This document shows, piece after piece, positions 3,224-18,358 of a DNA stretch of 20,217 bases. Source of the stretch: a virus; the IMG/VR virus record IMGVR_UViG_3300028025_005681, positions 1 through 20,217 of that record. One strand, 5' to 3'. The number at the start of each line of letters is the position of its first letter. The first letter of the stretch is position 1. A program made the position numbers and the translations under genes. The notes beneath the pieces were generated by a model. The model was not told where the DNA came from. It made no database searches and saw only the letters and a program-made list of their open reading frames with translations.

Positions 3224-6200
3224 TTGCCACTACAAAAACAGCTCGTACCTGTTGTGGTTCCACAGGGAATCAACACTAAAATCAACACAACTCTGCTACC
3301 CATGCAACAAGCTGCTCAGCTTGATAACTTCAGACTTGATAAACAGGGTGAGATAAAAAAGCGTTTTGGCTTTGATCCCATTGCTTCACTTCCATCAAAC
3401 TTTAATCCTGAAGCATTAATAGACAACACCTATATAGCCAAAAGTGTTTTTGATTTTAATGGCCGTATGCTTTGCGTTGCCAAATTCCAAGACAACACGA
3501 TCACAGATCCTTTACAGGATCCAGACATTTATAGGCTTTTTGATTATGTGTCCTCTAGCAATACATTTTTAGACAGAGGCATCACAGGCAATTTCACTCA
3601 TGAACTCAAAGAGCTGACAAGCAGTGACACCGAAGAGGTTATGCCAAGCTGGGCAAGAGTAGGAAGTGTGAATGTGTGTGGCTTTATCCGCTACAACTCT
3701 TCTAACACCACCACTGGCCTTATGGGTGGCTTCCTGAACGTTTATGACGCACAGACAAGCCAGCTCATAACAACTTTCAATTTAGGTTCTACTGTAAGGC
3801 GTGTGAAAGTTTGTTATAGAAATCCAAACTCTGTTTATATATTAACCAACGCCGTAGCATCTTCTACACTCATAGCCCGTGTGTTGGACGTATCTCTTTT
3901 GACTCTTAGCTCCAGTGTAAACACGGCAACAAATTTAAGTATCAGTACACCTAACTTTGACTTAAAATTCCATCCACTCACTCAAAAAGCACTGGTCTTT
4001 TACAACACAGGAGCTGCCACAGTTCTGGGCTATCTGACCAGCACAGGTTTATTAGATAGCTCTCCCACTCCTTTAGTCATGAATGCCCTTAATGGCAGTG
4101 GAGCTGTGCATCTTAATACAATAGACAGTCAGCCAGAGTTAGGGCGTATCACTGCTATATGGGCCAGTGACGTTGCCCCAAATTTCATAGTCTCATGGGC
4201 TTACTTGAACTGGAATTGGACGGGGATTCCATCCATTGGAACCCAAAACCACACAGCACTTGTGAGACAAATCACATCAGATAGCGCTTTTGTTTACTGT
4301 GAACTTTCTGCTGCGCTTGTTTCCAACCAACCCATAAACTCTAGGGTTTTGATTTGGCAACCTAGCCTTGGCCCGTGGACACTTTGGGATACCGTGCGCT
4401 CTGTGGGTCTAGCTAGTGAAGCTCTTTTCAGCCAATTCATAGTAGCTCTAGCTCATGAATCCAAATTGCAGCCCACGACATTCCTCTATGATTCTTCGAG
4501 GAAAAGAATTGTCGCAAAAATGGCGCAATCAAAATCTGGGGGCCTTGCTGGAGCAATAGGGGCCACAGGCACCTCTGGCTATACTTTGATACCCTCATGC
4601 CTTCCTTCAATCAATTTGACCCTTTTAAATGATTCATTGTCTTATGAATTGATGTCTATAACCAAGTCAGGAACTATAAGCCAAGGTGGTGAGCTTTTTG
4701 GTACCCGCAATATTGCAAGTTTTAAGTTTACAAAGAGCGTTAGCCCACAAGCCATAAAGTCCAGTTCTCTTTTTCTCGCAGGAAGCCAAGTTGATCAATG
4801 GGACGGGGTAACTCTGGCTGAAGCTGGCTTCTATTTATCACCAGAGAACGTGATATCAGCCACAGACACGGGTGCTACCACAACCGCAGGCGTGTATGGT
4901 TGGGCTGTAACCTATTCGTGGGAAGACGCTTATGGGAAAAAATGGGAGTCCTTTGCAGCTCAAGGCACAATAACACTGACCGCAAGTCAGCAGATTAAAC
5001 TCACCATTCCAACCTTGCGGCTCACATCTAAATCCAATGTGGTTATCAACACCTACCGCACAACTGTCAATGGGACACTGCTGCAACGCTGTGACGCTGG
5101 CAATGCCACTGCTGCGACTATCACTTACACCCCAAGCTCACCACGGTTCAATGATAAGAGCGTGGATTCTATTGATCTGTGGCTCAATATTCCTGTTTCA
5201 GCCAGTGATATTGAAATAGAAACACGGGCAATCCTTTATACAAGCGGTGGGGAACTAGACAATGATCCACCGCCTAGCTGCACACATTTATCTATTTATC
5301 GTGGGCGCATTGTCTTTACAGGCCTAGAAGATAGAAGATATATAGGCTATTCCAAGCTATTCACTCCAGACAGTGCTCCAAACTATAACAACACGTTTAT
5401 TCTGGGCATTCCAGACGATGGGGAACCTGTAGTCGCAAGCCAACAACTTGACGATAAGCTCATAATCTTTAAGCCCACAGGACTTTACGCTTTAGCTGGT
5501 AGTGGGCCTCTAAACACAGGGCTTCAAGATGACTTTGACACACCTGTATTAGTAGCCACCGATGTGGGTTGCATCAGTCCACAGTCTATTGTTCTTTATG
5601 CTAACGGTGTTTTGTTCAAGTCTGGTAAGGGTATCTATGAGCTTAGCCGATCGATGCAGGCCAGCTATATCGGTGCCCCTGTCGAGGCATACAACACATT
5701 GGATGTCACAGGAAGCGTTTTAATAGATAACCGAAATGAAGTTCGGTTCACAACAAACGACAAAACTCTTGTCTATAACTATTTTTTCCAACAGTGGATG
5801 ACTTACAGCTCACTTCCTTCATTGACCTCTAACTTAGTCAATAACACACACACCATTTGCTTAATAGACGGTAGAATAGTGCAGGAAACATCAGACTTTT
5901 TGGACGGTGGCTCTTACATCAAAAGCACCTTAGAGACAGGTTGGCTTGCGTCAAGTCTCCAAGGCTTCCAAAGGGTATATAGGTTTTTATTCCTTGGGCA
6001 AAGCATAACAAATACAAATCTGTCCGTTGCTTTGTCTTATGACTATAATTTGTTTACCAGTGAATCTTTTTTAATCACTTCTCAAAACATGTTCCCCATA
6101 GGCCCACTTGGAGATTCAGGCTTTGGAGTTGGCCTATTCGGTGGCCCTTATAGTGGGGTTGCACAATTTATGGTGCTGCCTAGCGTACAAAAATGTGAAG

Positions 6201-9151: not shown

Positions 9152-11880
9152 GTAAAGAGCAGCAGGCACCTGTTCCAACTGTGCGTTTATGGGACGGCAG
9201 TCAATATAAGTCTCTAGATCAGCAATCTGCTTTAAATGAACTGACTAGCCCTACTGGACAGATGGGTTTTAAACAGGGCGACGAGCTGTTTTTTAAATAC
9301 CCCGATGGAGCTATAGGGCGGGCCAAAAATGCCAATGACTTTTTAGAAGCTGTAAAAGCTGGTGGTCAAGAGATAGACAAGCGCACTTTCGAGCTGCGCA
9401 AAGAAGCCCGTGGTGTGCTAGGCACTGCGACTGCTTTTGGCTCAAGCGCTTTAAGCAGTGCAACGTTTGGCGGCAGTGATGTTATTGCCCGTGGCCTAGA
9501 TGAATTGTCTGGCAACAAGTTTGGTATCACCGATCGCATTAAGGCAAGCCAAGAGGCCAGCCCTATAGCTTCCACGTTGGGTAGCGTCACAGGCGCAGTG
9601 GGTTCTGCTGTGCTACTCCCCGGTGGCGGCTTAGTGGGCCAAGCCAGTAGGCTAGCCACAGGAGCCGTTGCAAAGACCGCAGGCGGTGCTTTGGGCAGCT
9701 TAGCAGCCAAAGGAACCTTGGGTGCTATTGCCAGCAGTGGGGCTAAGCTTGCAGCCACTGGAGCTATTGAAGGTGGTTTGCAGGGCGTAGGCCAGACCAT
9801 TTCACAGCAGGCCTTGCAGTCTACTCCGCAGGGTGTTGTGGAAAGTCTTGTTGCCAATGTGGGCACTGGAGTCATATTTGGCGGTGGTGTGGGTGGTGCA
9901 TTAGGAGCAGGTGGTAAAGCCTTAGCTCCCGTTGTAGGTGGTGCAGGCAAAGCTTTCACGACTGTTACTAGTAAACTCAAAGGTCTTGACGCAAGCGAAG
10001 TCGCAGCAGCCAAAGAAATCTTTGAGCCCGGAAGTGAAGCTCTCAAAGTGTTGCGTAGCCCACAAAAGTTTGAAGAGCAGGTGGCAAGCTCAACTCAAAA
10101 ACTTATGAACGACATCGAAACTTCAGGGATAGAGGCTTCTAGTAAGCTCAATAAACTTATTGAAGATACGGCTACTGATCCCATTAAGGGGGCCCAAGCT
10201 AAGACCGTTGTTTTAGACCACATGGGTGCACTATCCAAAGATCCAAGTTTATCACCCAAAGTCAAAACAGTTTTGAGCGACATACAACGCAAGCTCGCTC
10301 CCATGACTGATGACGAGTTAAGAGCAGTTGAAACAACGTTAGGCAGCCTTGAGGTAAAGCTGACTCAAAACTTAACTGCTGCTGAAAGGGAAAGCGTACA
10401 GTCACAGGCTGAAGCACTGAAAAGAAGGCTGACGCTAGACAGTCCAGAGAATGCTTTACAGAATTTGCGTGAAATTAGACGTGACGTTTCGGAAGCCCAA
10501 AGGGACTTCCAAAAAGCCTATACCATGACAGGAGATAGGGAAGCCAATTTAGGTTTAAAACAGCTCGACAGTTTAAACTCAGTCCTTAAAAAGACAGTCT
10601 GGGACGAGAACACTTTCGGCCCACAGGCTGGTCTATTGGCAGATCTAGACGAGGCTATAGCTAAGCGTTATTCAGCTTTCAATGCTCTTAAAGAAACTGG
10701 AGCAGTGAAAAAAGAAGGAGCTGGTTTTGTATTGAAACGAAATGGCGTCAAAGCTCTTTTGAGGGACGAGAAAAACGCTGGCCTTATAGAAGACCTTTTG
10801 GCAGCAGAGCACCGTGTCCAGTCTGTGGGTTCACAACTCACAGGTGAGGCTATGGAACAAACGGTTTCTGATCTACCCAAGATGATACAAGCTCGACAAA
10901 CTGTGCGCTCACTTTTCGACAATGAGCTGATGACTGGGCGTTCACTTGGCCCCGGCATGGCAGGCTTTGCTATAGGTGGAGCACCGGGGGCACTCCTAGC
11001 CCATGCTCTTGAAAACCCTGGGCAAATAACTAAATTCCTAGCTAACCGTTACTCTGATGCTCTTAAAGTTGGAAAGTTGGTTGATAAGGATGCAAGCTGG
11101 GGTATCCTGCAAGGGCTGGCCTCAACACTCAATGACAAAGCCCGTGCTGATGCTTATAGCCGTGACTTAGAGGCCCAAAGCCAGCAGTCTGCCCTAGACA
11201 CCTCTAAGGTCATTAACCGTGCCACTAGTGGGCTTTTAAACCGTGAGCGTAGCCCATCCGTTACACCTAGCTCTGTTTACACCCCCCAAGATTTACAAAA
11301 GACTAAAGAGATGCTTGCCAGCCCTGCCTCTTTTGACAATGTGGGAGACCCCGTTCTCAAGGCCAGCCTCATGACACAACGTCAATTAGTGGAAGGCTAT
11401 CTCAACTCTAAGATGCCACCACAAAGGACAGACAGTGTGGGCTTTGAGAAGCAGCCCACTAAGCAGCAGCTGGTTTCTTTTGGACGCACGGTAGAAGCTG
11501 CAACAAACCCTATTAAAGTTATAGAGGACATAGGTAAAGGCCACGTTAGCCGTGAGGGATTGGAGACACTACAAGCTGTGTATCCTGCTCTTTATGAAGC
11601 TTTAAAAGAAGAAATTAAAGGCACAATAAAAAATGAACCTCACTTAAAGAACAAAGCCATTATTGCCCAAATAATAGGGACAGAAAATATTGCCAGTCGG
11701 GCTAAGAGATCTATGGATTTATGGGCTATAGCTTTCAGTGAAGAGCAGAAAGATCAGGCCACGGGCGGATTAAACCTTGATATGAATGGCCCACAACAAG
11801 GTGGTGGTGCTATGCCAAAGCTCAAGGGCATTGGTAGTATGGGAGCTGGTCAAAGCCCTAAGCGTGGAGCATTAGCCTAA
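9148..11880 (+). CDS. large internal virion / DNA-ejection-type protein (910 aa)
   Basis: ATG 9148 overlaps the previous stop codon (ATGA) and has AGGGAGG at 9133-9139. Residues about 1-80 form a small domain (VRLWDGSQYKSLDQQSALNE). Residues about 104-155 contain ATFGGSDVIARGLDEL and ASPIASTLGSVTGAVGS, a pattern found near the N-terminus of large phage ejection proteins ('t.G.sD.....g........e.nP.a...G...G'). Residues about 145-290 are very rich in Gly/Ala with several hydrophobic stretches, which could insert in a membrane. From about 300 to 650 it is long, charged and helical. The C-terminal 250 residues include a second helical block and a Gly-rich tail. I found no catalytic motif of a transglycosylase. 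It probably corresponds functionally to T7 gp16-type proteins, by position only. Confidence 0.65.
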   Translation: MSKEQQAPVPTVRLWDGSQYKSLDQQSALNELTSPTGQMGFKQGDELFFKYPDGAIGRAKNANDFLEAVKAGGQEIDKRTFELRKEARGVLGTATAFGSSALSSATFGGSDVIARGLDELSGNKFGITDRIKASQEASPIASTLGSVTGAVGSAVLLPGGGLVGQASRLATGAVAKTAGGALGSLAAKGTLGAIASSGAKLAATGAIEGGLQGVGQTISQQALQSTPQGVVESLVANVGTGVIFGGGVGGALGAGGKALAPVVGGAGKAFTTVTSKLKGLDASEVAAAKEIFEPGSEALKVLRSPQKFEEQVASSTQKLMNDIETSGIEASSKLNKLIEDTATDPIKGAQAKTVVLDHMGALSKDPSLSPKVKTVLSDIQRKLAPMTDDELRAVETTLGSLEVKLTQNLTAAERESVQSQAEALKRRLTLDSPENALQNLREIRRDVSEAQRDFQKAYTMTGDREANLGLKQLDSLNSVLKKTVWDENTFGPQAGLLADLDEAIAKRYSAFNALKETGAVKKEGAGFVLKRNGVKALLRDEKNAGLIEDLLAAEHRVQSVGSQLTGEAMEQTVSDLPKMIQARQTVRSLFDNELMTGRSLGPGMAGFAIGGAPGALLAHALENPGQITKFLANRYSDALKVGKLVDKDASWGILQGLASTLNDKARADAYSRDLEAQSQQSALDTSKVINRATSGLLNRERSPSVTPSSVYTPQDLQKTKEMLASPASFDNVGDPVLKASLMTQRQLVEGYLNSKMPPQRTDSVGFEKQPTKQQLVSFGRTVEAATNPIKVIEDIGKGHVSREGLETLQAVYPALYEALKEEIKGTIKNEPHLKNKAIIAQIIGTENIASRAKRSMDLWAIAFSEEQKDQATGGLNLDMNGPQQGGGAMPKLKGIGSMGAGQSPKRGALA

Positions 11881-11883
11881 TAT

Positions 11884-12456
11884 ATGAAACAAAAGATTAA
11901 GCATGAAATTAAGCAGACACCCATTGAACAACTCCATATGTATGCTCGCAATGCAAGAACTCATAGCGGTGAGCAGGTTAAGAGAATTGCAGAAAGCATC
12001 CAAGAATTTGGATTCCTGAATCCAATCCTTGTGGATAGTGCAAGTAAAGAAATTATTGCAGGCCATGGAAGGCTACTAGCAGCACGTGAGCTAGGGCTAG
12101 AAACAGTTCCCGTTGTCTTCTATAACCACCTGACAGATACGCAAAGGCGTGCTTACACGCTTGCAGACAATAAGCTGGCTTTGGATGCAGGCTGGGACGA
12201 GGATTTGTTGAAGCTAGAGCTAGATGAATTGAAGCTAGAGGATTTTGATCTAGACGTGATTGGCTTTGAAGGCTTTGATTTTAATACAATAAATAATGAT
12301 AGTGAGTTTAAACCAAATTTACCCAAAGAGGATAATGAAGATAGGAAAGGTATTGATTATGAGCAAAAATTTGAAATGATCATAATTGCAGAATCAGAAC
12401 AGCAAGAATTATTTGAAGAAATGACATCAAGAGGAATTTCATGCAAGATTTTATAG
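11884..12456 (+). CDS. ParB-like N-terminal-domain protein (190 aa)
   Basis: Residues about 10-105 form a ParB/Srx-type domain: PIEQLHMYARNARTHSGEQV, AESIQEFGFLNPILVD, then IIAGHGRLLAARELGLETVP with the G60-H-G-R63 core motif, and finally RAYTLADNKLALDAGWDE. The rest is an acidic linker (LDELKLEDFDLDVIGFEGFD) and a short alpha/beta tail (KFEMIIIAESEQQELFEEMT then RGISCKIL). In phages such domains commonly sit next to a DNA methyltransferase. Here the partner is instead an ABC-ATPase/GNAT protein, whose start codon overlaps this gene by 16 bases. A role in recognising DNA sites or binding CTP is known for relatives and is inferred here. The Shine-Dalgarno sequence is weak (TGGAG, 14 bases upstream). 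The last third of the gene is markedly more AT-rich than the first two. Confidence 0.82.
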   Translation: MKQKIKHEIKQTPIEQLHMYARNARTHSGEQVKRIAESIQEFGFLNPILVDSASKEIIAGHGRLLAARELGLETVPVVFYNHLTDTQRRAYTLADNKLALDAGWDEDLLKLELDELKLEDFDLDVIGFEGFDFNTINNDSEFKPNLPKEDNEDRKGIDYEQKFEMIIIAESEQQELFEEMTSRGISCKIL

Positions 12457-13538
12457 TTAATTTAAATTCTGAAATTCAAAAAAGTTTTTTATGTATCAAA
12501 GCAGCTAATAGCCAAGATATAGATATACATAAAAAGTCTGAATTTAAAAAAATAATTCGTGCAGATATAGACTCCCCTTATCATATAGGGTTAATAGCTG
12601 GGAATAGTGGGAGTGGGAAAACGACTCTAGCTAGAGAATGTTTCAAAGGTTATTTCAAAGAACAACCAATTTTAAATTTAAATAAATCTATTATAGACCA
12701 ATTTCCTAAACATTATTCGTATGAAGACTGTCAAAAACAATTAAGTTTTATAGGCCTGACTTCTGTTCCTTGTTGGATACGTCCAGCTTATACATTGTCT
12801 AATGGGCAACGTTTTCGAGCAGAAGTCGCTTTACAATGTGCTTTTGCTGGTGATGACGTTGTTGTTATAGATGAGTGGACGAGCGTAGTTGATAGAACGG
12901 TGGCAAAAGTCATGTCTCATAGCATTCAAAAATTCGCTAGAAAAATGAATAAAAAAATTGTCCTTCTTTCATGCCACCATGACGTTATTGATTGGCTTCA
13001 GCCAGACTGGGTTATTGATACCAATACAGATGAATTTGAATGTCGGAGGGGGCGAAGTCATGACAGAAAAGAACAACTCAACTTTACCATTAGAGAATTA
13101 CAAAACGGAAAATATTGGAAAAATTTTAGCCGTTATCACTATTTAAGTCAAAATCTGCCAGGAGGAAAAAAGTTTTATTATGGGCTATTCCATAAATACA
13201 CTCCAATAGGATTTATGTGTTTTGCTAATTATGTATTTGGTAGACGAAATATATTGCATTCCAATCGTATAGTCATTTTGCCTGATTATTGTGGATTAGG
13301 ACTTGCTAAAGAATTTGTCAATAAAGCGTGTCTTGATATGGCTTCAAAAGGTTATGATATAAGAGAAAAAAATAGTAGCTATCCAAGATATAATCAATTA
13401 AAAAATGATCCTAATTGGATTTTATTGTCTACCGATTTTAAAACACCTAGATCTTCATCTGCCAAAGAAAGCAGAACCATAAGACAAAGAAACAATGTTC
13501 GTTTTTGGTCTTGGAAATTTATTGGCAATCAAGTTTGA
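12441..13538 (+). CDS. ABC-type ATPase fused to GNAT/Mom-like acyltransferase domain (365 aa)
   Basis: The N-terminal ATPase half has all the ABC elements in order: Walker A GNSGSGKT (residues 54-61), signature LSNGQ (119-123, a variant of LSGGQ), Walker B VVVIDE (140-145) followed by a D-loop-like SVVDR, and the switch histidine in LLSCHHD (175-181). No membrane segment is present, so it is not a transporter. The C-terminal half (about 215-365) reads FSRYHYLSQNLPGGK, YYGLF, IGFMCF and NRIVILPDYCGLGLAKEFV. The last is a GNAT motif-A strand and acyl-CoA pyrophosphate loop, with D282-x-x-G285-x-G287 where most GNATs have R/Q-x-x-G-x-G/A. I recall the 'HYL...YYG.F....Gf' layout from Mom-type and related phage acyltransferases. 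The start has GAGG at 12431-12434. Base composition is strongly AT-rich. The gene converges on the minus-strand gene with 10 bases of overlap. Its substrate is unknown; DNA is the leading guess. Confidence 0.82.
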   Translation: MQDFIVNLNSEIQKSFLCIKAANSQDIDIHKKSEFKKIIRADIDSPYHIGLIAGNSGSGKTTLARECFKGYFKEQPILNLNKSIIDQFPKHYSYEDCQKQLSFIGLTSVPCWIRPAYTLSNGQRFRAEVALQCAFAGDDVVVIDEWTSVVDRTVAKVMSHSIQKFARKMNKKIVLLSCHHDVIDWLQPDWVIDTNTDEFECRRGRSHDRKEQLNFTIRELQNGKYWKNFSRYHYLSQNLPGGKKFYYGLFHKYTPIGFMCFANYVFGRRNILHSNRIVILPDYCGLGLAKEFVNKACLDMASKGYDIREKNSSYPRYNQLKNDPNWILLSTDFKTPRSSSAKESRTIRQRNNVRFWSWKFIGNQV

Positions 13539-14710: not shown

Positions 14711-14969
14711 AGTGACTCAAGTGACTGAAGCGACTCAAGTGACTGAATCATCACCTGAATCAAAGCGTTTTATCGAGGCAATTTATTTAGCCCAAGCTGT
14801 TCAATATGCAGGCACTATGCGTACATTTTTTAGGTTTGACGATGGTTTTGAGTTAGAGAAATGTGACGGCAATGTTATTGTGACTTCAAAAGATAAGGGC
14901 TATGGCAGGTATTTAGAAATTGGATTCTCTAACATTAGTGCAGTGCTGTGGAATTGTGGACAAGGCTAA
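14673..14969 (+). CDS. small protein with Thr/Glu/Val repeats (98 aa)
   Basis: I prefer ATG 14673; the upstream in-frame TTG at 14655 is the alternative. GGAG at 14657-14660 fits neither start ideally. The N-terminal 30 residues are a polar linker built of hexapeptide repeats (TEVTQV, TEATQV, TESS). After it come a helix (SKRFIEAIYLAQAVQYAGTM) and a small beta domain (RTFFRFDDGFELEKCDG and VIVTSKDKGYGRYLEIGFSN). It overlaps the GNAT gene upstream by 38 bases and the terminase gene downstream, so all are probably translated together. I do not recognise the family. Its place directly before TerL makes a packaging accessory role plausible. Confidence 0.6.
   Translation: MATKPVLTVQKTEVTQVTEATQVTESSPESKRFIEAIYLAQAVQYAGTMRTFFRFDDGFELEKCDGNVIVTSKDKGYGRYLEIGFSNISAVLWNCGQG
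14705..14747 (+). repeat. 18-bp tandem repeat in coding sequence
   Basis: GACTGAAGTGACTCAAGT (14705-14722) is followed by GACTGAAGCGACTCAAGT (14723-14740) and by a partial third copy, GACTGAA (14741-14747). The period is a multiple of three, and a 9-bp sub-period is also visible (GACTGAA/GACTCAA). The encoded sequence is a flexible Thr/Glu/Val/Gln linker. Confidence 0.75.
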
Positions 14970-16425
14970 GCTCACAGACTTTGAAAAGAAAGTCTTACTC
15001 GAATACTACCGCAGACATAAGCATCTGCTTAAAGGGAAAAACCCTGCGGTGCTTCTCAAGGCCAGTCTATTCCAAAGCCAATCAGAGTTTATTTATGACA
15101 GCAGTGAGCTAGCCTTAGCCTGCTGCACCCGTAGGGCTGGCAAGTCTCATGCCTGTGCAGTGGGCCTACTGACAAAGGCCCTAGACACGCCTAATAGCGA
15201 ATGCCTCTATATAGGCTTAACAAGACTCACAGCCAAGAATATTATGGTTCCTAACATTGAGCGTCTACTCAAACGTTTCGATGTCGATTATGAATTCTAT
15301 AAAGCCGAATTGAGGTTTGTCTTTAAAAATAAGTCTCAAATAGTCTTGACGGGTGTGGGTGATAGTATCCGTGGCATTCAAAAGATGTTAGGCGTGGCTT
15401 ATGACTTAGTGGTCATTGACGAGGCGCAGAGCTTTCCAGAGCACATCAAGCCACTCATTTACGAAGTCCTGATGATAACCGTAGCGGAGCGCAAAGGTAA
15501 GATCCGCATGATAGGAACCCCCGGCATGATTGCCAGTGGGTTTTTTTATGATGTAGCCCATGGTAGAGAGCTGGAAAGTCAGTGGGCGACTTATCACTGG
15601 TCATGGACAGAGAATGCTGTTGTTAAAGATCTGATACAAGAGCAGGTAAACAGAATGGTGGCATCTAGCCCCCAAGTTGTGGATACACCTGCTTATAAAC
15701 GCAACTATTTGGGAGAATGGGTGGCCGACAATGACGCACTTGTATATAAGTTTACTGCTGATAAGAACCTTATATCCTGTAGCCAAATGGGTGAGCGTCC
15801 TATATGTGATGCTTATATTCTCGGAGTGGACTTGGGTTTTGTTGATGCAACAGCTTTTTGTATTGTTGGTTGGGGGCCTCACAATGAACGGATCTATATT
15901 CTGGAAAGTTATAAAGCTAGTGGGCTTATTCCATCCGATATAATCAAAGTTATTCAATCCTATCATGACAAATATGAGAATAAAATAATCAAAACTGTTG
16001 TTGACGAGGGTGGTCTAGGAAAGTCCATCGCCGAAGAATGGCGTAGGCGTTATATGGTTTCAGTCATTCCTGCAAAGAAGACAGAAAAAAGATTATTCAT
16101 TGACCATGTGAATGGCATGCTCATTCAAGGCCACATCCAAATTGCAAAAGAAGAAAACCCTGAATTGATAGAAGAAATAAAAAACTTAGTGTGGCTCGAT
16201 TCAGACAGGAAGCATGAGCACCCTGCATGCGATAACCACATTTTAGACGCTATGCTTTATAGCATAAGAGAATCAACAAGTTACTTATGGTCTCCTGAAG
16301 TTATAATGGATCCTATTAAAGAACAAGAGCGCAGATTGTTAGATGCCCACATAAAAGCGGTGCAACAAAAATCGAGTCTATTGGATAGATACATGGAAAG
16401 TGGTGACAATGAAGGATGGCACTGA
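14956..16425 (+). CDS. terL: terminase large subunit (TerL)
   Basis: This is the DNA-packaging motor ATPase and genome-cutting nuclease. Numbering from GTG 14956 (489 aa), the features are: Walker A-like TRRAGKS (58-64); Walker B LVVIDEAQ (about 151-158) with catalytic Glu; motif III MIGTPG (185-190); and an RNase-H-fold nuclease with acidic residues at GVDLG (D292), VVDEGG (D350/E351) and HILDAMLYSI (D431). The length is normal for a phage TerL. The start is unsettled: an in-frame TTG at 14920 and a GTG at 14938 are also possible, and none has a strong Shine-Dalgarno sequence. The gene overlaps the preceding 98-aa gene and, at its end, the small acidic gene, which implies co-translation. The portal gene that often follows TerL is absent here. 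Confidence 0.93.
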   Translation: MDKAKLTDFEKKVLLEYYRRHKHLLKGKNPAVLLKASLFQSQSEFIYDSSELALACCTRRAGKSHACAVGLLTKALDTPNSECLYIGLTRLTAKNIMVPNIERLLKRFDVDYEFYKAELRFVFKNKSQIVLTGVGDSIRGIQKMLGVAYDLVVIDEAQSFPEHIKPLIYEVLMITVAERKGKIRMIGTPGMIASGFFYDVAHGRELESQWATYHWSWTENAVVKDLIQEQVNRMVASSPQVVDTPAYKRNYLGEWVADNDALVYKFTADKNLISCSQMGERPICDAYILGVDLGFVDATAFCIVGWGPHNERIYILESYKASGLIPSDIIKVIQSYHDKYENKIIKTVVDEGGLGKSIAEEWRRRYMVSVIPAKKTEKRLFIDHVNGMLIQGHIQIAKEENPELIEEIKNLVWLDSDRKHEHPACDNHILDAMLYSIRESTSYLWSPEVIMDPIKEQERRLLDAHIKAVQQKSSLLDRYMESGDNEGWH

Positions 16426-16624
16426 AGATATTGACGATGATTATTTTATTTATGAGTGGCCCGATGAATTTGGGAATGGGCAAAGAATCAACGAATATAG
16501 AAGCCTGAGTAAAGAAGAAAAAGTAAATTATTTAAAAGAATATGAAAAAAATAAAATTGAAATTTTATTAGAGTACATTGAAAATTTAAAACATAAACAA
16601 AATTTAGAAAACAAAAAATCATGA
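16409..16624 (+). CDS. small acidic protein coupled to the sigma factor (71 aa)
   Basis: The gene begins inside the end of terL; ATG 16409 is preferred, with GGAAAG upstream, and GTG 16400 is an alternative. It ends ATGA with the sigma-factor start. The N-terminus is very acidic and aromatic (DIDDDYFIYEWPDEFG). The C-terminal 40 residues form a Lys/Glu-rich helix of coiled-coil character (LSKEEKVNYLKEYEKNKIEI). Base composition is extremely AT-rich: I count 9 G/C in the last 60 bases. I do not recognise it. Its tight coupling suggests it works with, or controls, the sigma factor, but this is inference from position only. Confidence 0.65.
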   Translation: MKDGTEDIDDDYFIYEWPDEFGNGQRINEYRSLSKEEKVNYLKEYEKNKIEILLEYIENLKHKQNLENKKS

Positions 16625-17142
16625 CTACTCAAGAAGATATTCAATGGATTCATAAGCTTGTGTCAGCGGTGATCGCAGACCACAACTTGAAACCAGTCCT
16701 TAGAATTTCTGTTTTTGACAAAGAAAATCTCATTGGCGCAGCTATGGAAGGGTACGTTAAAGCATTGAAAGCATTTGATGAAACAAAAGGTATACCTTTT
16801 AAAAAATACGCTTCATATAGGATTAAGGGTTCGGTTTTGGATGAGGTGCGCAAAGCTATGGGAGATGAAAGGATAAAGAATAAAAAGCCTAAACTAATTT
16901 ATGATTATGATTTTGGACTTTTCAAATACCAAGAAGACCCTTTTATTTGGAAGTTTAAGTATGACAATGAAATAGACAATTTTATAGAAAGCTTACCTTT
17001 TAAAAATACGGATAAACAAATTTTGTTTTTTAGACTCACAGGTATGAATCAAAAACAGATTGCACAGAAGTGCGACTGTTCTCAGTATTGGGTATCTATA
17101 AGATTAAGACATATCCAAGGGTTTTTAAAATGTTTTTTATGA
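16621..17142 (+). CDS. phage-encoded sigma-70 family factor, FliA/sigma-28-like (173 aa)
   Basis: Region 2 lies at about residues 33-80: ENLIGAAMEGYVKALKAFD, then GIPFKKYASYRIKGSVLDEV, then R77. The 'F..YA..RIKG..LDEvR' pattern matches FliA-type and sporulation-type sigma factors closely. Region 4 lies at about residues 127-170: DKQILFFRL...MNQKQIAQKCDCSQYWVSIRLR, a helix-turn-helix that would read the -35 element. Between them is a short, charged linker with no clear region 3, and region 1.1 is absent. At 173 residues it is shorter than FliA (about 240). It would bind host RNA polymerase core and direct it to phage, probably late, promoters. It has no visible Shine-Dalgarno sequence and depends on ATGA coupling to the small acidic gene. 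It lies in an AT-rich island. Confidence 0.85.
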   Translation: MTTQEDIQWIHKLVSAVIADHNLKPVLRISVFDKENLIGAAMEGYVKALKAFDETKGIPFKKYASYRIKGSVLDEVRKAMGDERIKNKKPKLIYDYDFGLFKYQEDPFIWKFKYDNEIDNFIESLPFKNTDKQILFFRLTGMNQKQIAQKCDCSQYWVSIRLRHIQGFLKCFL

Positions 17143-17201
17143 ACAAGAATTTGTTTTGCGCCTGAAGTAAACTTAAATACAACTCTGGCAAAGGAATTAC
17201 A
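17143..17201 (+). promoter_or_regulatory. intergenic region before the distal fibre cluster, weak promoter candidate
   Basis: This 59-bp gap follows the sigma gene. TTGTTT (17151-17156) and TTAAAT (17173-17178), with a 16-bp spacer, form a poor vegetative-type pair (3/6 and 4/6 matches). AAGGA at 17191-17195 is the ribosome binding site for the next gene. AACAA-GAAT-TTGTT near 17142-17155 is a weak hairpin without a T-tract, so I do not call a terminator. A phage-specific promoter read by the adjacent sigma factor could be here, but I cannot define its motif. Confidence 0.25.
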
Positions 17202-17534
17202 ATGAGCGCAAAGATTATTGGCCCATACAATTTATTGGACGCTGTGAGCTTAGGAGCAAGCGTCAATAGCAGTGAGTTGGATGTGACACGGCTTATTTAT
17301 GCCTCTATTGCTATTGATTGGACGGGAACACCTACGGGCACTCTGACTCTTGAAGCTAAAAATGGAAGCAGCTCATGGATTGCTATAACAGGTCAAAGCC
17401 AAGCTTTGGCAGGAGCATCGGGAAGCATTATGCTTACGCTCACTATACTGCCTTGGGAAAAGATACGCTTATCGTACGCAAGAACATCAGGAACTGGATC
17501 TGTCACTGGCGTTGTCATAGCTAAGGGGTGGTAG
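17202..17534 (+). CDS. small beta-sandwich-like virion protein, paralogue 1 (110 aa)
   Basis: The sequence is beta-rich with the order: LDVTRLIYASIAIDWTGTP, GTLTLEAKNGSSSWIAI, GASGSIMLTLTILP, KIRLSYARTSGTGSVTG and a C-terminal AKGW. The same plan recurs in the 115-aa protein at 18011-18358 (see findings). Proteins of this pattern are found in many phages as small structural or fibre-associated proteins, but the exact role is unknown to me. The start is ATG 17202 with AAGGA six bases upstream. The stop is one base from the next start. Confidence 0.7.
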   Translation: MSAKIIGPYNLLDAVSLGASVNSSELDVTRLIYASIAIDWTGTPTGTLTLEAKNGSSSWIAITGQSQALAGASGSIMLTLTILPWEKIRLSYARTSGTGSVTGVVIAKGW

Positions 17535-17535
17535 T

Positions 17536-17985
17536 ATGGCAGATCTGGTTTTCCCTTCAGTTTGGCCCATCGTAGATGTCAGCTATTCGGGTTTAGTATC
17601 AATGCCAACAATAGCTGCTACTGTGATACACAGTAAGGTTTTTGAAGCAGGAATGTATTGTATAGATGCTAGTATGAGTTTTTATTTTGGAGCGTCCCCA
17701 GCAGCGTTAACGACTGGGACTGGACTATGGAAAGCAGCTATTAGCTTAACAACAGGTTTTGATACAGCTAATAATATAGATTTAAGTGTTTCTCTTATAG
17801 ACAATGTTCCTTTGACAAACATCAACTCATCGGGCAATGCAAACGCACAAATTTGGAGATGTGAGTTAAAGCGTTATGTCACACTTTCTGCAAGCCAAAC
17901 TATTTATATAGTAGCTCAATATCCTATTATTTATTCTGGGGGGGCATTGCAAGGCATAGCCCAAATGATTGCTACTAAATATTAA
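17536..17985 (+). CDS. beta-rich virion or fibre-accessory protein (149 aa)
   Basis: The start is ATG 17536 with GGGGTGG at 17524-17530. The protein is hydrophobic and beta-rich, with little charge: FEAGMYCIDASMSFYFGA, LWKAAISLTTGFDTANNI, IWRCELKRYVTLSAS, then QTIYIVAQYPIIYSGG and a terminal IATKY. The alternation of strands and the 'aG.Y.i.a...f' opening resemble jelly-roll (C1q/TNF-like) domains at the tips of phage fibres; this is a visual impression only. It lies between two paralogous small beta proteins. Confidence 0.65.
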   Translation: MADLVFPSVWPIVDVSYSGLVSMPTIAATVIHSKVFEAGMYCIDASMSFYFGASPAALTTGTGLWKAAISLTTGFDTANNIDLSVSLIDNVPLTNINSSGNANAQIWRCELKRYVTLSASQTIYIVAQYPIIYSGGALQGIAQMIATKY

Positions 17986-18010: not shown

Positions 18011-18358
18011 ATGAGTCAAACTAGACGTTTTATACAGCCATTCCATATTATAGATAACCAAACTATGGCAGCAGATATAACAACAACTGCTGTGGACATT
18101 TCTAACGTTGATGACATCAGCATTGTTTATGACTGGTCTGCGGGCTCTAGCCCAGTGGGCTCACTCATTGTTGAGGTGAGAAACGGAGAGTCTCCATGGT
18201 CAATTCTAGACATTGCACCACCTGCTGCTATTAGTCTCAATACAGGCAATAACAATATACAAATAACAAACGTGAGCTTTAAAGAGCTTAGGCTTATTTA
18301 TTCTAGAACAGGTGGTAGTGGCACTTTAAACGCTTGGTTAACAGGCAAAGGCAGGTAA
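18011..18358 (+). CDS. small beta-sandwich-like virion protein, paralogue 2 (115 aa)
   Basis: It has the same segment order as the 110-aa protein at 17202: DISIVYDWSAGSSPVGSLIV, EVRNGESPWSIL, a Gly/Asn loop, ELRLIYSRTGGSGTLNAWLT and a terminal GKGR. Divergence is high but the key positions agree: D-W, G-S-L or G-T-L, N-G, W, R-L-x-Y-x-R-T, S/G-G-x-G and K-G. The start is ATG 18011 with AAAGGA about nine bases upstream. It is probably a virion surface or fibre-associated protein. The next gene's start lies six bases after its stop. Confidence 0.7.
   Translation: MSQTRRFIQPFHIIDNQTMAADITTTAVDISNVDDISIVYDWSAGSSPVGSLIVEVRNGESPWSILDIAPPAAISLNTGNNNIQITNVSFKELRLIYSRTGGSGTLNAWLTGKGR

Follow-up and report, generated by a model that had tools for sequence, protein, structure and literature searches.

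A divergent, compact sigma-70-family factor encoded after the large terminase gene of a phage, probably as an accessory gene

The open reading frame at 16621-17142 (plus strand) of the window, which is the whole 20,217-bp IMG/VR record analysed here and most likely a fragment, encodes, judging by its sequence, a genuine sigma-70-family protein of 173 aa. It is a real, divergent and compact sigma factor, and ordinary in kind. The frame is intact from ATG to stop and its coordinates agree with those of the sequence-only reading that had first drawn attention to it. The explanation favoured here, which we hold to be reasonably probable, is that of a two-domain sigma that was acquired by insertion, is made late and acts as an accessory rather than an obligatory late switch.

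Assignment to the family is based on profile matches, domain tests carried out separately on the two ends, an AlphaFold2 (AF2) model and fold matches. The full-length protein scores 47.6 bits against TIGR02937 (cut-off 42.9, E 1.3e-12, residues 32-170) and 24.5 bits against PF04542 (Pfam Sigma70_r2, cut-off 24), which bears out the compact sigma-70-family factor proposed by the sequence-only reading; profile searches for regions 2 and 4, the check that it had suggested, did return sigma-70 matches. Residues 1-90 alone reach 26.4 bits on PF04542, above the cut-off, and match the FliA/WhiG model TIGR02479 at 3e-12. Residues 111-173 alone match the region-4 part of TIGR02937 (E 4e-5) and fall below the cut-offs of the Pfam region-4 models (0.04-0.06). 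Taken end by end, region 2 is therefore clear and region 4 is real but has diverged more than region 2; with this difference between the two regions, the earlier observation is confirmed. The best PDB sequence match is sigma28. Profile searching of the 20,217-bp record returned 16621-17142 as the sole sigma match, with no second sigma gene, and among viral contigs, genome contigs and annotated phages no close homologue was found, only similarity at the level of region 2.

The protein is composed of sigma2 (approximately residues 4-80), a disordered linker (85-115) and sigma4 (approximately 117-172), a layout of the ECF/Xpf type that is FliA-like in region 2 only. Alignment by hhalign with full-length FliA-like sigmas extends over just 48 columns, confined to region 2, and alignment with short or divergent sigmas from phage records takes in 133 columns and spans regions 2 to 4. 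The confinement of the former to region 2, together with the linker modelled as disordered, agrees with the earlier remark that region 3 is missing; missing as well is the DWVPR stretch that the aligned FliA-like sequences have in common after region 2. Against TIGR02479 the protein scores 46.8-46.9 bits for a cut-off of 189.6, failing the FliA/WhiG (sigma28) family cut-off by a wide margin, with a true FliA/WhiG member in another locus (L033) scoring 255 as a yardstick. The label "FliA-like" was thus apt for region 2, which is closest to FliA/WhiG, and does not extend to family membership, given this score and the lack of region 3. By architecture the protein belongs with the ECF, or group IV, sigmas, which contain sigma2 and sigma4 only in fewer than about 200 aa, as seen in its 173 aa, the 133-column alignment and the AF2 model; none of the named ECF subfamily models scored above its cut-off.

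The AF2 model, run with a 6-row alignment, has a mean pLDDT of 68.9 (domains mostly 70-90) and places four helices in residues 4-79 and four in 117-172, on either side of the linker. The region-4 helix-turn-helix (HTH) is modelled intact, with helix pLDDT of about 75-90, while the pTM of 0.43 makes the relative positions of the two domains unreliable. A single-sequence model was discarded (pLDDT 46.5). Named fold matches (Foldseek, VIA-align) are mostly sigma factors or sigma-bearing polymerase complexes, the exceptions being a few viral entries under generic names (polymerase subunit, HTH protein) and, in the PDB list, the epitope-scaffold entry 3les. Domain 2 alone superposes on sigma domain 2 structures with an rmsd of 1.6-2.1 A and Z of 8.4-9.1, values that are only moderate for helical domains, so the weight rests on the sequence profiles.

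Compact phage sigmas are already known. The notion that phages rarely use sigma factors in this way is not upheld, with approximately 13% of VOG phage genomes carrying a sigma factor (PMC9429907) and gp47 of Salmonella phage 7-11 being an experimentally proven late sigma, acting at late promoters (PMC8948821). This late ECF-type protein resembles the window sigma in combining sigma2 and sigma4 at a similar size (185 aa), but shares no pairwise BLAST similarity with it and is encoded in an oppositely oriented middle block rather than beside terL. The gp36 protein of phiEco32 is likewise a small phage sigma, working with host core polymerase; it is reported to lack region-4 homology (PMC8948821), in contrast to the window sigma, and has no significant BLAST similarity to it. 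On TIGR02937 these two score 54.8 and 23.3 bits, respectively, against 47.6 for the window sigma, which makes a working sigma of such size and divergence entirely plausible. Xpf of the B. subtilis prophage PBSX is a small group IV factor with sigma2 and sigma4 (19.95 kDa; PMC10141391), likened here by layout. In addition, a compact sigma of 174 aa in IMG/VR 3300017613_000145 (L035 644-1168) contains sigma2 and sigma4 and is 44% identical over 45 region-2 residues, in another gene context with no terL seen nearby in the DNA examined. Together with the many phage sigmas of 130-250 aa in a viral structure library, it indicates that the kind is well populated.

A FliA-like sigma lies on a contig with a terminase gene at L034 5443-6633 (a long ORF, with the sigma part from near 5797), the contig appearing Mu-like by eye only. 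A sigma-near-terL case in L033 is not claimed, as the 553-aa gene there has no confident terminase match.

The gene had been described as lying next to the terminase large subunit gene. The terL gene is indeed upstream (14920-16425, plus strand; phrog_2 E 1e-35, PF17288 above cut-off), but a 74-aa ORF that the earlier description lacked intervenes at 16400-16624 on the same strand (70-71 aa if counted from the ATG at 16410); it shares bases with the end of terL and, at an ATGA, with the start of the sigma gene. The three form a chain of overlapping ORFs in one direction, for which the simplest reading is that the sigma is made late with the packaging proteins; it is probably co-transcribed with terL. 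The GC content is 33% in the sigma gene and 0.256 (as a fraction) in the 74-aa ORF, against 43-49% in most conserved late genes, and codon usage does not set the sigma gene apart from other genes. No match to the 74-aa ORF was found in the relatives searched, including the closest one, and its product may be a partner of the sigma.

The nearest relative found is IMGVR_UViG_3300033415_000009 (G001; loci L005, L008 and L009), of 32,763 bp, which has most of the window genes in common, including most late genes, with identities of 74% for TerL (in L005), 78% for the adaptor, 80% for ORF 6347 and 70% for ORF 9148. In this relative only 38 bp (L005 14761-14798), with a ribosome-binding-like stretch, separate terL (end at 14760) from the homologue of window ORF 17202 (start at 14799), where the window has 776 bp (16426-17201, plus strand) between the same two genes. 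The first gene after this insert (17202-17534, plus strand, 110 aa) is 64% identical in L005. Neither the sigma nor the 74-aa ORF occurs between terL and the next shared gene of the relative, and no sigma gene was found elsewhere in its 32,763 bp by protein search, profile search or phmmer --max on six frames. The sigma gene is thus absent from one close relative that does have the late module, and whose record is possibly incomplete; a TerL search for further close relatives returned the same contig only, and no prophage with a related terminase was found that would assign a host. This absence, combined with the AT-rich composition of the sigma gene and the 74-aa ORF, suggests that an accessory pair was inserted into the late block, base composition favouring gain of the pair here over its loss from the relative.

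The two phages also differ outside the 776-bp insert. A 149-aa ORF at 17536-17985 (GC3 0.27) is absent from the relative and sits between two paralogous small genes, the 17202-17534 gene and 18011-18358 (28% cross-similarity). The window has its SU10-type adaptor gene (829-1512) before the tail genes, and L005 has it after them (10007-10678), a rearrangement between otherwise syntenic phages.

In the favoured explanation, sigma2 would contact the -10 element and bind core polymerase, sigma4 would contact the -35 element and a flexible linker would join them, with neither sigma1.1 nor sigma3. The sigma gene and the overlapping 74-aa gene would have been acquired as a pair inserted between terL and the gene that follows, and the sigma would most likely be read on the terL transcript and so be produced alongside the packaging and structural proteins. 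It may then bind host core RNA polymerase and divert part of it to a small number of promoters, giving an accessory boost to some phage or host genes, and is probably not an obligatory switch of the late programme. A working model for such a role, by analogy, is offered by Bacillus phage sigmas whose targets are host genes, a sporulation-like phage sigma being nonessential for lytic growth (PMC9429907). The existence of a close relative without the sigma makes an optional extra of known kind likelier than a master late-gene switch, and the gene behaves like optional cargo within the terminase and structural gene block. With the window sigma, a phage group that has been sparsely sampled gains a divergent compact sigma, and the two phages, having largely common late proteins and differing in the sigma, would constitute a natural test of switch versus extra, if culturable.

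The strongest competitor, although rather unlikely, is that the protein is the phage's late-gene sigma, made in small quantity by early host transcription and then turning on late promoters, its own included, and with them terL and the structural genes. Precedent exists in 7-11 gp47 and phiEco32 gp36, which direct host core polymerase to late promoters; within the phiEco32 group, related phages have independently acquired unrelated sigmas that are used at equivalent late promoters (PMC8948821). Since related phages can exchange sigmas in this manner, absence from one relative is compatible with a late role here, and, both records being fragments, the relative could have another late regulator in its unsequenced part. 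Nevertheless, the earlier proposal that the sigma governs late transcription is weakened by the relative, which has the same late module and no sigma, and by gene position: the sigma gene follows terL in the late block, in the same direction, rather than standing ahead of the late/terminase unit. Position and absence together make an obligatory switch less likely. The PBSX Xpf gene lies just upstream of the terminase genes. Known late regulators are encoded ahead of what they control, RinA upstream of terS and Ltr before the late promoter, in both cases preceding the terminase genes (PMC13123087). The sigma genes of 7-11 and phiEco32 lie in an oppositely oriented block, unlike here.

In phages whose TerL is approximately 35% identical, the terminase genes are preceded by the gene of a different small protein, which has a region-4-like HTH (L013 2537-2986; L012 1-405, truncated). 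The L013 protein matches PF08281 at 3.1e-5, just under the cut-off. This small protein is not demonstrably homologous to the window sigma and, by the position of its gene, is a candidate for a late regulator in the manner of RinA and Ltr; its presence lends the late-sigma proposal some support, in that the wider group may use such regulators.

Going by the genes called, non-coding DNA amounts to only 493 bp in the fragment, and no motif common to the gaps between genes stands out there; this gives no basis for inferring a target motif, and the earlier suggestion that the motif is probably new is not supported. Pairwise alignment of intergenic regions had succeeded for phage 7-11 (PMC4331800). 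Spaced dyads were shared by at most three of five gaps, a count that the null reaches in 42 of 200 trials, and the best pairwise gap alignment (p 0.0066 in 72 comparisons) does not go beyond the null. Matches to the FliA consensus with up to 3 mismatches number 29, slightly more than the 19.7 +/- 4.7 expected (2 of 100 shuffles reached 29). They were set aside as uninformative, as only one of the four best matches (2 mismatches) lies in a gap, where it faces the wrong way, back into the adaptor gene. A sigma-70 promoter scan stays at chance level (40 against 35.5 +/- 5.8). Ahead of the sigma gene itself, a candidate promoter matching at 9 of 12 positions (16557-16585) is within chance level, and a cryptic promoter there is possible.

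A captured sigma could instead switch part of a host regulon, for instance motility, in the manner of the sporulation-like sigmas of Bacillus phages, which can activate host sporulation genes and include at least one that the phage does not need (PMC9429907). The accessory distribution would fit, as would the region 2 nearest to FliA/WhiG (TIGR02479, 3e-12) and the sigma28 match in the PDB, but region 3 and the DWVPR stretch are missing and overall similarity to FliA is low, which leaves this reading doubtful. Also improbable is a late-made two-gene module in which the compact sigma, with a FliA-type region 2 in an ECF-type frame, would redirect host polymerase to promoters of undescribed sequence and the 74-aa protein would be its partner or anti-sigma. 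A decoy that binds core polymerase, displacing the host sigma and lowering host transcription while selecting no promoters, would suit the compact form and a region 4 below the Pfam cut-offs, but is very improbable, as region 4 is recognised alone (E 4e-5) and its HTH is modelled intact, with no sign of decay.

Returning to the wider set of related phages, a ParB-like gene lies beside, or is fused to, a different enzyme in each of them (11884-13538 in the window; L008 6578-8297; L010 7258-8508; L013 3663-4976). The companion is an ABC-ATPase/GNAT fusion in the window (phrog_11143, 4.8e-78, 33% GC), a TET-associated glycosyltransferase in L008 (PF20691, 1.1e-37) and DNA methylases in L010 and L013 (PF01555). 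The ParB-adjacent position has the look of a slot in which DNA-modification genes are exchanged. The GNAT half of the window fusion may be Mom-like. At the other end of the window, the gap at 251-376 contains an apparent 3' remnant of a gene that is intact in L005 (11208-11813), with 79% DNA identity over 268-347, reading SHAEVGQFLDNS.
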